DNA of 28,032 nt, taken from a virus. Position 1 is the stretch's first letter; every line of letters begins with the position of its first letter. The position numbers were made by a program, and so were the translations under genes. The DNA lies in IMG/VR virus record IMGVR_UViG_3300037585_005106, positions 1 to 28,032 of that record; one strand, 5' to 3'. The notes beneath the pieces are model-generated. The model had not been told where the DNA came from, ran no database searches, and saw only the letters and a list, made by a program, of their open reading frames with translations. Positions 4,172-22,245 of the stretch are shown here, piece after piece.

Positions 4172-4504
4172 TCATTTTCCCCATTGGATATTAACTTGTA
4201 CACTCTCAGTATCTGTATTTAATAGCTGGTTTAAAACATAATTCCTTCCATCCTTATAAATCGCCCTTTTATCTTTAAACTTTTTAACATAATTGTTAAG
4301 CGTATTAAAATCACTAATACCCAAAGCTCTGGCTGCAGCTTTCTTATTTCTTGATGTACACAAATTCTTTTCTTGTGTAACCTGATTACAATCAACAAGT
4401 GCTGCTAGGACTCTCAACTCCATATCTGTTAAGTTAAAGATTCCATTCCATAACTGCAAATACTTAAACGTAGAATTTACCTTAATCGTTATTTTTTGGT
4501 TCAT
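4172..4504 (-). CDS. Helix-turn-helix protein, putative DNA-binding regulator
   Basis: A 110-residue protein with a probable winged or simple HTH. Residues about 23-40 (LTDMELRVLAALVDCN) look like the first helices of a winged-helix domain. Residues about 54-80 (KKAAARALGISDFNTLNNY, then a basic KKFKDKRAIY segment) look like the recognition helix region, followed by a possible wing (YKDGRNYVLN). It lies within the packaging operon, overlapping the upstream gene by 23 bases and followed after one base by the 43-residue gene. It could regulate the operon or recognise packaging DNA. The DNA-binding call is moderately sure; the target is unknown. Confidence 0.78.
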   Translation of the reverse strand: MNQKITIKVNSTFKYLQLWNGIFNLTDMELRVLAALVDCNQVTQEKNLCTSRNKKAAARALGISDFNTLNNYVKKFKDKRAIYKDGRNYVLNQLLNTDTESVQVNIQWGK

Positions 4505-4760
4505 CTTGTGTTGGATTTTTAATTTCTTCTTCTACCGCCTCAGCATGTGGAAGCTGCATACAATAGTTGTAGAGAACTTTCTCCTTATCCGTATGCTTCT
4601 TCTTAGAGTGGTAGATCTCTAGATAGTTATATAACGCCAGAGTATGATTCCCCAGCTGATTCTCAAGTTGAGCAATAACCTTATACACGTTATTATCTAT
4701 CTTATACTTAAGACCATCTACAGTGATCTTCTTTTTAGGTTTCTTTTTCGTCTGTATCAT
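4482..4760 (-). CDS. Hypothetical helical protein
   Basis: A 92-residue protein with a lysine-rich N-terminus (MIQTKKKPKKKITVDGL), a helical middle with leucine and tyrosine repeats (about residues 25-70) and an acidic tail (AVEEEIKNPTQDEPKNND). No family is recognised. It overlaps the gene before it by 26 bases and the HTH gene after it by 23 bases, so it belongs to the same polycistronic unit. Charge separation between the two ends suggests a nucleic-acid-contacting head and a protein-contacting tail, but this is only inference. Confidence 0.72.
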   Translation of the reverse strand: MIQTKKKPKKKITVDGLKYKIDNNVYKVIAQLENQLGNHTLALYNYLEIYHSKKKHTDKEKVLYNYCMQLPHAEAVEEEIKNPTQDEPKNND

Positions 4761-4953: not shown

Positions 4954-5164
4954 CCTCTAGTATAATCTTCGCGGACGTAGATTGCTTATTAAATTCTGCC
5001 ACATACGGTTCTATGTCAGAACGACTAGTCATGAAACTCAGAAAGACCGCCATTTCTTTAGCAGCCCTTTTGGTACTAGTTGTCAAAGCATCAGCTTTCT
5101 CCTGGTGCTCTATCAACTCATGATAGTCATCTAACGATATTGTTACAGTCCCTGCAGGCTTCAC
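4913..5164 (-). CDS. Hypothetical protein following GroES-like gene
   Basis: An 83-residue protein starting with GTG at 5164, which overlaps the TGA of the GroES-like gene as GTGA, a coupled start. The N-terminus (GTVTISLDDYHELIEHQEKA) resembles the short strand plus helix seen in many small phage proteins that precede a coiled coil. The middle is helical and the end is charged (RARIQFTDDKN). No family is named with confidence. It is one of four small genes between the co-chaperonin and the HTH gene. Confidence 0.72.
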   Translation of the reverse strand: MKPAGTVTISLDDYHELIEHQEKADALTTSTKRAAKEMAVFLSFMTSRSDIEPYVAEFNKQSTSAKIILEDGRARIQFTDDKN

Positions 5165-5445
5165 TTCTCAATCTTTCCAAGTATTTGAAACTCATTCACA
5201 AACAAATGAGGGACCTCATCGATATGTATAAGCATAGCTTCAGACGTAGGATCTACCATTACAGTATCACCTATCTTAGTCTGCCTACAATCCGGACCTA
5301 CGGCCAGAACCTCTAAGATGTTAGTTTGTAATTTTTTTGCTGTCTCGTCATCTAAGTAAATGCCGGACTTTGTCTTCTTTGCAGAAGGTTGAGGTAGTAC
5401 CACCCATCCACCAAAAGGTGTAAAATTGACTTTCTTCTTTGTCAT
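5161..5445 (-). CDS. GroES-like (Cpn10) co-chaperonin
   Basis: A 94-residue protein that fits the Cpn10 fold along its whole length. It has an N-terminal strand with GGWVVLPQP, the KTKSGIYLDDE segment matching the family's kt.gGi.lp start of the mobile loop, VLAVGPDCRQTKIGDTVMVDP matching V.avGpG...vkvGDkV, and a C-terminal EFQILGKIEK matching .dIla.i. Co-chaperonins cap GroEL and close its folding chamber; phage versions (T4 gp31 is the best known) retune host GroEL for the major capsid protein. It is the first gene of the minus-strand packaging operon, 23 bases downstream of a good promoter. Residues 16-34 hold the presumptive mobile loop, and its sequence is phage-specific. The family call is firm; the capsid client is inferred. 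Confidence 0.87.
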   Translation of the reverse strand: MTKKKVNFTPFGGWVVLPQPSAKKTKSGIYLDDETAKKLQTNILEVLAVGPDCRQTKIGDTVMVDPTSEAMLIHIDEVPHLFVNEFQILGKIEK

Positions 5446-5467: not shown

Positions 5468-5499
5468 CAAAGTTATAATAAAAAAGTTTACAGTTGCAA
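5468..5499 (-). promoter_or_regulatory. Bacteroidetes-type promoter for packaging operon
   Basis: On the minus strand TAACTTTG (5475-5468) fits the -7 element TAnnTTTG. A TTG (5499-5497) lies 21 bases upstream, a match to the -33 element. The predicted start of transcription is about 15-17 bases before the ATG of the GroES-like gene at 5445. No Shine-Dalgarno lies in that short leader. Confidence 0.65.
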
Positions 5500-5520: not shown

Positions 5521-5870
5521 GAATTGGACACAGGTACCCCCTTGGGGATCCTAATTTCAATCGGAATTTTACCTTTAGCAGTGCTCTCCATCTTTGCAGA
5601 AGGACCAAGGGACACTAAGACTAGTGTTAATTCACCGCACCTACCTGTGTGCAATGTGTCCCAACCAAGGTTATATCCTTTCTTTTCAAGGCTATGGGAG
5701 AAAATTTCCTACTGGTGATTCGCTGTCTCAGCGTTTTCTCAGCGTATTCCTAGGGCCATATTACAATGACATTACTAGGTATAAATCCCACGTCTGACCC
5801 CCTACTGCTCTTTCGATCCTCAGGGGTGATACTCCTGGCAAGGAGTGCCTTTTCGTATGCAAAGTTAGAC
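5521..5870. ncRNA. Candidate structured non-coding RNA (strand uncertain)
   Basis: Between 5500 and 5907 there is no convincing protein gene. The block 5521-5880 is about 43-48% GC by 60-base steps, against about 20% in 5461-5520 and 32% in 5881-5940. It contains many complementary segments: ACACAGGTA (5528-5536) with TACCTGTGT (5642-5650); CCCTTGG (5539-5545) with CCAAGGG (5605-5611); ACACTA/TAGTGT around a four-base loop (5612-5627); GGGACAC (5609-5615) with GTGTCCC (5656-5662); CGCTG-TCT-CAGCG (5721-5733); ACCCC (5797-5801) with GGGGT (5823-5827); and ACTCC/GGAGT (5831-5846). Some pairs are mutually exclusive, which could mean alternative folds. A GC island with nested pairing in AT-rich DNA is typical of a functional RNA. 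No tRNA, tmRNA, RNase P or intron signature was recognised. It could instead be an origin or cis-acting packaging region. Confidence 0.45.
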
Positions 5871-6199: not shown

Positions 6200-6230
6200 T
6201 TAAGCTAACGTTAAATTTTCCCAGGGAAAA
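6200..6230. promoter_or_regulatory. Palindromes in the divergent control region
   Basis: The gap 6166-6336 lies between minus-strand and plus-strand genes. It holds GTTA-agc-TAAC just before 6210 and a near-perfect palindrome TTTTCCC-A-GGGAAAA at 6216-6230. Such symmetric sites often bind dimeric regulators, and the position between divergent units suits an operator. No protein partner can be named. Confidence 0.35.
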
Positions 6231-6265
6231 AATTTTTTGGTGGAGGATTTGTGAGCGTGTAGACC

Positions 6266-6297
6266 AACACCGACAAAGACCCCCACTAAGTTACGGA
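6266..6297 (+). repeat. 32-base early-region repeat, copy 1
   Basis: This 32-base element is repeated at 6605-6636 with 27 of 32 positions identical. Both copies start AACACC, carry ACAAA and CCC, and end with the best conserved part, CACTA(A/T)(G/A)TTACGGA. Copy 1 ends 39 bases before the ATG at 6337. A shorter core, ACTATGTTACGG, recurs at 18842-18853 in another upstream gap. Orientation is the same in all three, always facing a plus-strand gene start, so a promoter or operator role is likely. Confidence 0.5.
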
Positions 6298-6336
6298 GTT
6301 TGGGATACCCCCGGACATTAATCTAAAATCATTCAC

Positions 6337-6548: not shown

Positions 6549-6616
6549 TAGCAAGTAGCAGGCAAGTAGACTAGGTTAAGACTAGATTAACACCTACAAA
6601 GGCTAACACCTACAAA
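6548..6616 (+). repeat. Cluster of short tandem repeats
   Basis: Three different pairs of short direct repeats follow one another: GTAGCAA/GTAGCAG (6548-6561), GACTAGGTTAA/GACTAGATTAA (6569-6590) and TAACACCTACAAA twice, 16 bases apart (6588-6600 and 6604-6616). The last unit merges into copy 2 of the 32-base repeat. This iteron-like array lies in the 213-base gap between a terminator and the next gene, and could bind a replication or transcription protein. Confidence 0.55.
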
Positions 6617-6636
6617 AACCCTCACTATATTACGGA
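6605..6636 (+). repeat. 32-base early-region repeat, copy 2
   Basis: Second copy of the element at 6266-6297 (27 of 32 identical), ending in CACTATATTACGGA. It lies 96 bases before the ATG at 6733 and overlaps the end of the tandem repeat cluster. See copy 1 for the comparison. Confidence 0.5.
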
Positions 6637-6732
6637 AAGAGAGTGATTGTGGTAACTAACCATCATCTACCACTTTTTCCCACTTTTTAACCTCTTATCT
6701 ATCTATTAACATTGTATAATATATCACTCATC

Positions 6733-19255: not shown

Positions 19256-19496
19256 ACTAATAGGGGTATTTGTTACCTGGAAAGACTATTCGTATAACAA
19301 AGGCTGTGAATATATGTGCGTTCCTTATTGGGGAGATGATAGTTCAAAAGTAGCTAACTGTCAACGCCGAGGAAACTATTTAGATAGAATTCTAAATAAT
19401 AGCGAAGAGCGTATTAAGCCTCTCGATGAGCAATGGCTTAGTGAAACAGATAAAAAGTGTTTAGAAATATTAAAAAATAAGATTTATGAGTATTAA
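19176..19496 (+). CDS. Hypothetical 106-residue protein before rIIA
   Basis: ATG at 19176, inside the preceding gene. The body starts KLQEWQDNLKRGAPIRIL and includes CEYMCVPYWGDDSSKVANCQ with three Cys, then a charged helix (DRILNNSEERIKPLDEQWLS). The spread of Cys (CEYMC...NC) might bind a metal but is not a standard finger. Its stop overlaps the rIIA-like start by 11 bases. The frame is protein-like along its length, so the long overlap is believable. Function unknown. Confidence 0.72.
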   Translation: MKSEKLQEWQDNLKRGAPIRILYNHCELIGVFVTWKDYSYNKGCEYMCVPYWGDDSSKVANCQRRGNYLDRILNNSEERIKPLDEQWLSETDKKCLEILKNKIYEY

Positions 19497-22245
19497 AACA
19501 ATTGATAAACAGATCAAAGGATCTGAAGGCGTTGCTAAGAAAATTAATAAAGGCGCCGAGAAAATGGTCTTTGATATTTTGCAAGCTACTCAATATTCTA
19601 CTCCTATTCCTTCTACCGTAAGAGAACTTACAACTAATGGTTGTGACGCCCAGCGTGAGAAAGAAATGGCTATAGAAATATTGACTGGCCAAGCAAAAGA
19701 AGAAGATTACTATATTAAGCGTGATGGCGCTCAATATGCAGACAGTAATTTTGACATAGGATACTATGACATTAACCACCTGGATGCAATAAACAATTAT
19801 GTAACTGTTACATACAAAGAGAACGAAGGAACGGGTTTTTGTGACACAGTTACTATTCAGGACCACGGTGTGGGCATTGGCCAAAGAAGATTAGAAGGTG
19901 TGCTAGAGCTAGGGTATTCAACCAAGCGTAATACATCAGAGAATTTCGGGGCTTTTGGTTTAGGAGCTAAGGTAGCATTATCTACTGGCGTAGATTTCTA
20001 TACTATAGAGACTATACATAATGGAATGAGATTTAAATGTAATTGTTATAACTATAAAACTGATTTTATTATACCTGCATTTAATGTAGAAAAAGGGATA
20101 CAAAATCCTTTTATTACATTTAGTGATGGTACTAAAGTGTACTATGAAAAGACAGATGAACTAAATGGCACTAAGGTATCATTTGGGATAAAACGTCATC
20201 ATAGACATGACTATCGAGATGCGGTAGAAGAACAGCTTATGTATTTAGATAATGTTAGATTTATTAGAATTGCAGAAGATGGGTATGAAAGAGAAGAAAA
20301 GATTCAGCCTCATATTATGCATAATTCTGATAATCTGATTATCTCTGATACATATGTGTTTAGTAAGCCTCATATAGTACTAACTAAGGGAGACGGCGCT
20401 TTGACTGGTGTAAACTACGGATTTGTAGATTTTCGCGAGTTAGAAATGCAACAAATGTGGGGACCAATTGCGTTTAAATGTCCAGCTAGGCAGATTATTA
20501 ATGACCCAGAAACTGGAAAAGAAATAGTACTGCAAGACGGAGTTGATGTAACGCCATCTCGTGAAAAAGTAATTTGGAATGAAAATACTAAAAAGTATAT
20601 CTTATCTGTAATTGAAGCAGCAGCTATAGAAGCTACTGAGCTTGTACAAGAAGAGTTAGAACAGAAAGACTTTGTGTCTTGGTTGCTAGCTTGTAAAGAA
20701 GTCTTGAGCAAAGCTGATAATGGTAGTGTGCTAGGTAGAATTGCTAATATCATAGATAAAGAGGCGTTAAAACCTAAATTCAAACCTGATCCTAGGATTA
20801 AGAATGAATCTGTATCTAAACTATTTAATCTTTTAGAGGCTAAAACAGTTAAGATTGTACGCAATCATCGGGATGGAACAGATGGTATTGATAGAGATAA
20901 ATTAGAAAACTATGCCCCTCTCAGAGAGAATAATATATTCTTAAAAGGAGAGGAAAGTTATAGTAAGTATAAGGATCTTTATCTTAATAATATTTGTTCA
21001 GGTGATTTTATAGTTATAGCAAAGCCAGAAGTTACTATTCCTACAGCTATTGCAAAAATGGCACCTGGAGATGCTAGAGATACTGCTTTAAAGCTTCATA
21101 ATCGCGCTGTTGCTAAACGTAACAAAGTTTGGGAGTTATTGCAAAAGTCTGAACATGTACGTGATTATGATGAAATAGAAGTTTCTGAAGAGTGGTTAGC
21201 TGAATATAAAGATGAGGCAAATAAACTAGAAGAAATTGCTAAGTTTGAAAATATCAGTCCTGAAGAACGCCGTAAGATTGAAGAGCGAATGGTAGCTTAT
21301 AGCTTCCGTCATAATCATAATCATTGGCGTGGTGATGATCGTAAGAGATATATTCTTGATAAGATTGAGCCTAAGGTAAAAGATCTTATGAAAACTGATC
21401 GTATTACATATTATGGTACTAAGCAGGATGAAGATAAACTTCATGCAGCTTGCGGTATTTTACATGTGTATGCTCCTAAGTTTAGAGAGGTATACACAAA
21501 CTATGGCCAAACTTATAGCGATGAAGCAAGCCATCCTGTATTTTTCTTTGATACTCCACCTGTTCGTAACAGAAAAGGGTGGGGCAATGAGAAGGGTAAA
21601 TGGGAGGACTGGTCAGAGCCTGGACATGAGAGTATAAATCTTGACCAATGGACTACGCCGCAGCTTATTAGAGTTTCACAAAGCAATGTTAAACACATTA
21701 CTATGAATCCTAATGTAAAGCATATCGATGAATTCTTTTTACAATTAACACCTAATGGAGGATATACAATGGATGAACATGTTATTAAATGGTACACTGC
21801 AGATAAAATGCAAAGTATCAAAGCGAAAACTTATTTATTCTGTCTTAAGGATATTAATCCTGAACTCTTTAAAAAGTATGAAGCAGTTTATAATGCAGCA
21901 GATTACGAACTTCGTGAGAGTCAGTGGGTTAAAGGAGAAGAGATATTTCCTGCGATTGAAAAGATTGTAGAGATGCATAACTTTTGCAAAGACAATGATG
22001 ATGCTAATGCTATTAAGCAAAAGAGTCGTGATTTATTTGTAGTAGACATTCCCGAAGCTATTGGACAAGACCAGGAACTGTTAGATCAGTATACTGAACT
22101 TGAAGAGTGGGCGAAAGGTGTACATGTATTACTTGATTCAATTGATGATATTAAGTTTGAGCCTGCAGATAAGCAGGACTTAGGCGACGATCTTATCAAA
22201 GAGATTAAAGTATATCTAGACGCAAAAGGCCGACTAGACTGGTAA
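19486..22245 (+). CDS. rIIA-like GHKL-ATPase protein
   Basis: A 919-residue protein with an N-terminal GHKL ATPase domain. The N box is RELTTNGCDA (E47, N51, D54), the G1 box QDHGVGIG (D126, G128, G130) and the G2 box NFGAFGLGAK (153-162). A transducer-like region follows (GTKVSFGI and onward), then a long mainly helical C-terminal half. This matches the T4 rIIA family, large GHKL proteins that in T4 block the host's RexAB exclusion system and affect lysis timing. The rIIB-like gene is next, the same pairing as in T4. The family is secure; the function in this phage is inferred. It begins 11 bases inside the previous gene and ends seven bases before a large hairpin. Confidence 0.85.
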   Translation: MSIKTIDKQIKGSEGVAKKINKGAEKMVFDILQATQYSTPIPSTVRELTTNGCDAQREKEMAIEILTGQAKEEDYYIKRDGAQYADSNFDIGYYDINHLDAINNYVTVTYKENEGTGFCDTVTIQDHGVGIGQRRLEGVLELGYSTKRNTSENFGAFGLGAKVALSTGVDFYTIETIHNGMRFKCNCYNYKTDFIIPAFNVEKGIQNPFITFSDGTKVYYEKTDELNGTKVSFGIKRHHRHDYRDAVEEQLMYLDNVRFIRIAEDGYEREEKIQPHIMHNSDNLIISDTYVFSKPHIVLTKGDGALTGVNYGFVDFRELEMQQMWGPIAFKCPARQIINDPETGKEIVLQDGVDVTPSREKVIWNENTKKYILSVIEAAAIEATELVQEELEQKDFVSWLLACKEVLSKADNGSVLGRIANIIDKEALKPKFKPDPRIKNESVSKLFNLLEAKTVKIVRNHRDGTDGIDRDKLENYAPLRENNIFLKGEESYSKYKDLYLNNICSGDFIVIAKPEVTIPTAIAKMAPGDARDTALKLHNRAVAKRNKVWELLQKSEHVRDYDEIEVSEEWLAEYKDEANKLEEIAKFENISPEERRKIEERMVAYSFRHNHNHWRGDDRKRYILDKIEPKVKDLMKTDRITYYGTKQDEDKLHAACGILHVYAPKFREVYTNYGQTYSDEASHPVFFFDTPPVRNRKGWGNEKGKWEDWSEPGHESINLDQWTTPQLIRVSQSNVKHITMNPNVKHIDEFFLQLTPNGGYTMDEHVIKWYTADKMQSIKAKTYLFCLKDINPELFKKYEAVYNAADYELRESQWVKGEEIFPAIEKIVEMHNFCKDNDDANAIKQKSRDLFVVDIPEAIGQDQELLDQYTELEEWAKGVHVLLDSIDDIKFEPADKQDLGDDLIKEIKVYLDAKGRLDW

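Follow-up and report, generated by a model that had tools for sequence, protein, structure and literature searches.

RNA leaders of the put and EAR kind, such as put of phage HK022, bring about processive antitermination by RNA alone, with no phage protein evidently required, and both elements are much smaller than 330 nt. The Crassvirales rank with the most abundant phages known from the human gut, and crAss-like relatives occur widely across marine metagenomes. The literature searched, which covered few subscription papers, holds no published description of the RNA treated here and no report of a noncoding RNA in Crassvirales; a review of Crassvirales mentions none, and no RNA is annotated at the site in the records examined. 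GOLLD and ROOL are large ornate RNAs of phages and bacteria (PMC12286853).

The window analyzed here, a 28,032-base IMG/VR virus record taken as a whole, carries a terminase gene (minus strand, 794-2773; PHROG 6681 match) whose best annotated relatives are those of gut crAss phages (~39% identity), and the phage is therefore regarded as crAss-like. Between two oppositely facing gene blocks of this marine phage, where no RNA has been annotated, a conserved structured RNA gene of ~330 nt almost certainly exists on the minus strand in the form described below. Like put and EAR, it folds, stands at the beginning of a long block of co-directional genes or close to it, and evidently requires no phage protein; one feature of that class is thus present, namely a position at the head of a co-directional operon and on the operon's strand. 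However, it is about three to five times larger, folds differently and is not matched by the Rfam model of EAR. It shares with GOLLD and ROOL the standing of a large, highly structured noncoding RNA of phage genomes, a candidate without an assigned function, but it is smaller (about 250-330 nt), belongs to other hosts, is not matched by the Rfam models of either and gives no sign here of oligomers. With the phi29 pRNA it has in common that it is a structured RNA encoded by a phage, here near packaging genes, although no phi29-type pRNA match was obtained in Rfam and the window RNA is kept beside a very different terminase in another phage (L122, below).

More broadly, a search of Rfam 15 gave no family at the gathering threshold and none even at E<=5 for the window block, nor was there a match at E<=1 for the loci of five short relatives; tRNA and tmRNA were likewise without an ARAGORN match. 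A nucleotide search of the INPHARED phages returned nothing for the window block and only chance-like matches for one relative. The RNA family is new in that it has no known relative in Rfam; should the mechanism prove to be put/EAR-like, the RNA would be a variant of the put/EAR kind, and the claim to newness would extend to the RNA family only. A large RNA that heads the late genes with its fold, strand and position all conserved would constitute a new regulatory or structural part of the Crassvirales life cycle. Its shape has been kept through evolution in more than 100 related viruses, and crAss001, a gut phage grown in the laboratory, probably has it too.

Architecture of the predicted RNA

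The RNA start is predicted at ~5855 by placing the promoter box at -12 to -5, and the 3' end was set as the end of helix P5. The features are as follows.

5526-5855, minus strand: structured RNA (181-bit match to R1, the covariance model of the window family; covariation)
5860-5867, minus strand: predicted Bacteroidetes-type (host sigma-A type) -7 promoter box TAACTTTG at the RNA 5' end (sequence; relatives)
5688-5851, minus strand: 5' domain with P1, P1a, P2 and P3 (covariation)
5851-5847 with 5692-5688, minus strand: helix P1 (partner found in 113 of the 116 sequences; 39 expected from shuffles)
5846-5842 with 5835-5831, minus strand: helix P1a (by-eye reading of the alignment)
5829-5823 with 5801-5793, minus strand: helix P2 (covariation test)
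5791-5786 with 5699-5694, minus strand: helix P3 (covariation test)
5705-5783, minus strand: lineage-specific expansion of P3a, a short hairpin in most relatives
about 5723-5719 with 5713-5709, minus strand: helix P3a
5526-5676, minus strand: 3' domain with P5, P6 and P7 (covariation)
5676-5672 with 5532-5528, minus strand: helix P5
about 5671-5664 with 5579-5572, minus strand: helix P6
5662-5656 with 5615-5609, minus strand: helix P7
5623-5652, minus strand: hairpins P8 (GCAC-ACAGGUAG-GUGC) and P9 (GGUG-AAUUAA-CACU)
5580-5607, minus strand: hairpin P10
5537-5547, minus strand: hairpin P11 CCCCAAGGGGG (weakly supported, by one-sided changes only)
5468-5475, minus strand: second predicted -7 box (TAACTTTG), before the groES-like gene (sequence)
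5161-5445, minus strand: GroES-like co-chaperonin, first gene of the packaging operon (PHROG 3188 and Pfam Cpn10)

The fold has two domains: in the 5' domain, P1 encloses P1a, P2 and P3, with P3a inside P3; in the 3' domain, P5 encloses P6 and P11, P6 holds P7 and P10, and P7 holds P8 and P9. A suspected resemblance of P8-P9 to a conserved hairpin pair of 23S rRNA was dropped, since no LSU model matched.

The preliminary description of this DNA had noted an island of about 45% GC in which no frame gave a believable protein, and both observations agree with the present data. At 45.7%, the GC content of 5521-5870 exceeds that of the flanks (21-32%), and equally GC-rich windows of 350 nt make up only 0.07% of the 28-kb record. 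Stops occur in every frame among 63 homologues (median 4-7), with at most 1.6% of the sequences being stop-free in any frame, and the homologue lengths (244-290 nt) are spread evenly over the three residues modulo 3. The direct repeat TCTCAGCGT is present at 5726 and 5737 as reported; it lies inside the expansion of P3a, which is absent from most relatives. The long-range pair of ACACAGGTA with TACCTGTGT can be read in the letters of the window, but only 67% of cells pair in the relatives, and the helix was rejected as unconserved. Because the same 3' segment forms P5, with 97% of cells paired, the alternative folds that had been built on the long-range pair are unsupported.

Relatives and covariation

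More than 290 relatives came from a terminase search of viral contigs, and among 80 loci retrieved from them the minus-strand block matches homologues in most that extend far enough upstream. Further loci were added by two pattern scans. The contigs of the first-search loci with no match to the RNA stop before the site, and L010 and L022, also without a match, stop either within or ahead of an insertion that precedes groES. By profile search, the RNA is present in at least 189 IMG/VR loci (some of the same contig), always in one copy per locus, and at least 117 distinct full-length sequences from these loci form the alignment set. Every contig that includes groES and the packaging genes has them downstream of the RNA on the same strand, and the polymerase and helicase genes, on the other side of the RNA, point away. 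The only pattern match in GTDB genomes, in a Chloroflexi MAG, was set aside as chance because the covariance model does not recognize the sequence. A variant of the RNA in L067, L078, L080 and L081 lacks P8-P9 and has a rebuilt 3' domain, with the 5' domain and the 3' end kept.

The proof of a structured RNA is the covariation in these relatives, not folding energy. When both strands were folded and compared with shuffled sequences, as had been proposed, the single-sequence energies gave z = -1.45 for the minus strand and -0.76 for the plus strand, which is weak evidence and was dropped as a deciding criterion. Covariation was scored by an in-house G-test with APC against null alignments simulated along a FastTree tree (70 sequences, 20 nulls), and the top eight covarying pairs, all of them within helices, exceed every null pair. 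In a separate MAFFT alignment of 63 sequences, 95.3% of the cells of a 57-pair structure are paired, and sliding the structure by 1-3 columns lowers this to 37-47%; the percentage is favored by the derivation of the structure from overlapping sequences. Changes on both sides of a pair number 402 cells (117 in shuffles), and the covariation score is 0.374, compared with 0.203 in shuffles and at most 0.094 when slid. The closing helix P1, which the folding program missed, was checked by a separate rule: of 116 sequences, 113 contain the full 5-bp partner, in 17 different combinations of pairs, whereas 1000 shuffles averaged 39, with no more than 54 in any one. Thus, the test in relatives by which the preliminary description had proposed to refute its own candidate was passed at the level of sequence: compensatory covariation and conservation are both strong, and the candidate new structured RNA stands.

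The RNA is placed on the minus strand because three lines of evidence agree, namely the numerous G-U pairs that the minus-strand reading gives (the plus strand would have A-C at these places), the promoter box and synteny; an RNA on the plus strand was rejected on the same three grounds.

Related elements in other phages

An outlier is L122, in which positions 4179-4510 hold an RNA of the window type (162 bits) beside a terminase 31% identical to that of the window; the gene set differs, and no match to the window's portal or groES was detectable. The terminase relatives of L122 (~70% identity) are without the window-type RNA, which likely reached L122 by horizontal exchange. In these relatives, a sister crAss-like clade, the divergent switch is occupied by a second conserved noncoding element, which suggests that the slot there can be filled by different RNAs. 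This element, seen in L243 (4248-4646) and 28 further loci of L232-L299, is about 150-190 nt long and has a TACGTTTG-type box at its 5' end, a terminator-like 3' hairpin (AGTGGC..GGCCACTTTT) and no match in Rfam.

Among the gut phages, crAss001 has a 320-nt stretch without annotation at its divergent switch, directly behind TATGTTTG, with the next ORF starting some 15 nt behind the element. The gut Steigviridae elements are located as follows.

L224, 659-982: element of crAss001
L375, 514-810: element of cr128_1
L383, 480-762: element of cr111_1

The elements of crAss001 and cr128_1 are 79% identical over 86 nt, and related sequences occur in L379-L382 and cr111_1; a match of L377 to the gut pattern was discarded as chance. 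Common to these elements and the window RNA are a 5' TAnnTTTG box, a location at the head of the late block, on the same strand, P3/P3a with GUAG..GAG, the nested P6-P7-P10 and the end AAGGGRAU..UAUA, but their sequence has drifted beyond the reach of BLAST. An nhmmer search of five characterized phages found nothing, and only the covariance model reached cr128_1. When model R1 was run over the whole records of 12 named phages, cr128_1 alone was significant (E=1.1e-4, 21.3 bits; the next match had 9.9 bits); this is the only R1 match in 95 kb and lies at the same site and on the same strand as the crAss001 element. Because the calibration was short and crAss001 is not reached by R1 directly, being linked through cr128_1 alone, it is probable, not proven, that the gut Steigviridae element and the window RNA are distant forms of one RNA. 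A genuine crAss001 copy would be testable at once in the cultured phage, for which stranded infection RNA-seq data exist (PMC8375218; BioSamples SAMN16810643-SAMN16810654).

Promoter boxes and possible functions

In 84 of 96 distinct relatives, a predicted -7 box (TAnnTTTG or TAnnTTAG) ends 4-10 nt, mostly 4 nt, before P1. The corresponding box of Flavobacterium lies at -12 to -5 (PMC9723704), and transcription would therefore start on or beside the first base of P1. A second predicted -7 box precedes groES in 85 of 86 loci. Three loci have no box in front of the RNA, and in these P1 begins at the stop codon of a small upstream gene, so that the RNA would lie within a longer transcript. Judging from these boxes and boundaries, the RNA would have a promoter of its own in most phages, and elsewhere it can lead a longer transcript or lie within one. 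In loci with genes inserted between the RNA and groES, the first ORF of the insertion usually reads in the same direction and has its start 6-49 nt behind the RNA, and most of these loci have no room for another promoter in between. Among the inserted genes are those for a PAS/histidine kinase and a DUF5675 protein, and some of the products resemble adhesins by eye. In L006, a gene for a PAS-domain sensor histidine kinase (409 aa) starts 11 nt after the RNA, ahead of groES.

Of the three functions that had been offered earlier, a regulatory RNA is now favored, a packaging RNA is weakened by L122 and a replication primer or origin is kept. The reading preferred here, tentatively and with less than even confidence, is that the RNA serves as a cis-acting leader at the head of the late transcription unit. 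Host RNA polymerase, which likely transcribes the middle and late genes of crAss001 according to an infection RNA-seq study (PMC8375218), would start at the box at 5860-5867 and make the RNA first; the folded nascent RNA would then act in cis on the polymerase or the transcript, allowing expression of the late block behind it, and no neighboring phage protein would be needed. It would be a large analogue of the put/EAR-type leaders of processive antitermination or have an equivalent leader function. This reading is favored because the place and strand upstream of the late block are constant with one copy per locus, because start codons lie directly behind the RNA and some copies are embedded in longer transcripts, and because the -7 box at the 5' end puts +1 on or next to P1. 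L122, where the RNA precedes a late block with different genes, indicates that no particular neighbor is needed. On the other hand, the groES promoter box behind the RNA means that a leader could be bypassed, the constant position may only reflect conserved gene order, and a length of 330 nt, much larger than the put/EAR elements, counts against a leader. Nearly as likely is a stand-alone trans-acting RNA with its own promoter, processed or ended at its 3' end, which would bind a host machine (RNA polymerase, ribosome or RNase) or a conserved phage protein and reprogram the cell around the late-gene switch. The box at the 5' end together with a further promoter that serves groES immediately after the RNA, the size and complexity of the fold with its conserved loops, the presence of the RNA among unrelated neighbors in L122, which marks it as exchangeable, and the other element with a terminator-like hairpin in that phage's terminase relatives would all suit such an RNA; however, it would not need a constant place at the head of the late block or the strand of that block, ORFs begin directly behind it in the insertion loci, and some copies have no promoter of their own. 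When these points are weighed, the cis-acting leader comes out slightly ahead. It is rather unlikely, though conceivable, that an RNA common to marine and gut Crassvirales at the start of the late genes alone converts host RNA polymerase to a read-through form, which would make it the largest RNA-only antitermination leader known, with unrelated RNAs filling the slot in other clades.

The position of the RNA upstream of the terminase and portal genes, on their strand, and its expected expression along with the late genes would accord with a packaging or assembly RNA that, like phi29 pRNA, binds the portal or terminase during DNA packaging, but the retention of a closely similar RNA in L122 beside a terminase of 31% identity, with no detectable match to the window's portal, weakens this role, which is improbable also in view of the missing pRNA match. 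A structured primer transcript or a part of a replication origin is at least as improbable: the RNA does lie at the divergent switch near the turning point of the cumulative GC skew, but the skew tracks the direction of transcription and so is no independent sign, the RNA reads toward the late genes and away from the replication genes, and covariation points to a transcript that folds and gives an origin no support. Least probable is a Y-RNA-like partner of a phage Ro/TROVE protein. TROVE (Ro-like) genes do exist in crAss001 and cr111_1, at about 97.4-97.9 kb and about 77.2-78.0 kb respectively, in each case a few kb away from the element and across the divergent switch from it, and a TROVE protein is reported among the early genes of crAss001 (PMC8375218); yet no TROVE match was found in the window, in the searched marine carriers (up to 93 kb) or in cr128_1, and Rfam gave no match to Y RNA or YrlA. 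With TROVE absent from most carriers, such a partnership was rejected as a general explanation.

Two further observations concern the rest of the window. At 19486-22245 a 919-aa protein is encoded with a weak RIIA/HATPase match. In the divergent region, a conserved motif, GGGGGTCTTTG.. TTGGTCTACRCGCTCA.., recurs at 6230-6310 and about 6600-6660, and many relatives also have it upstream of the RNA. It may serve as an origin element or as an early promoter for the polymerase that the phage encodes.
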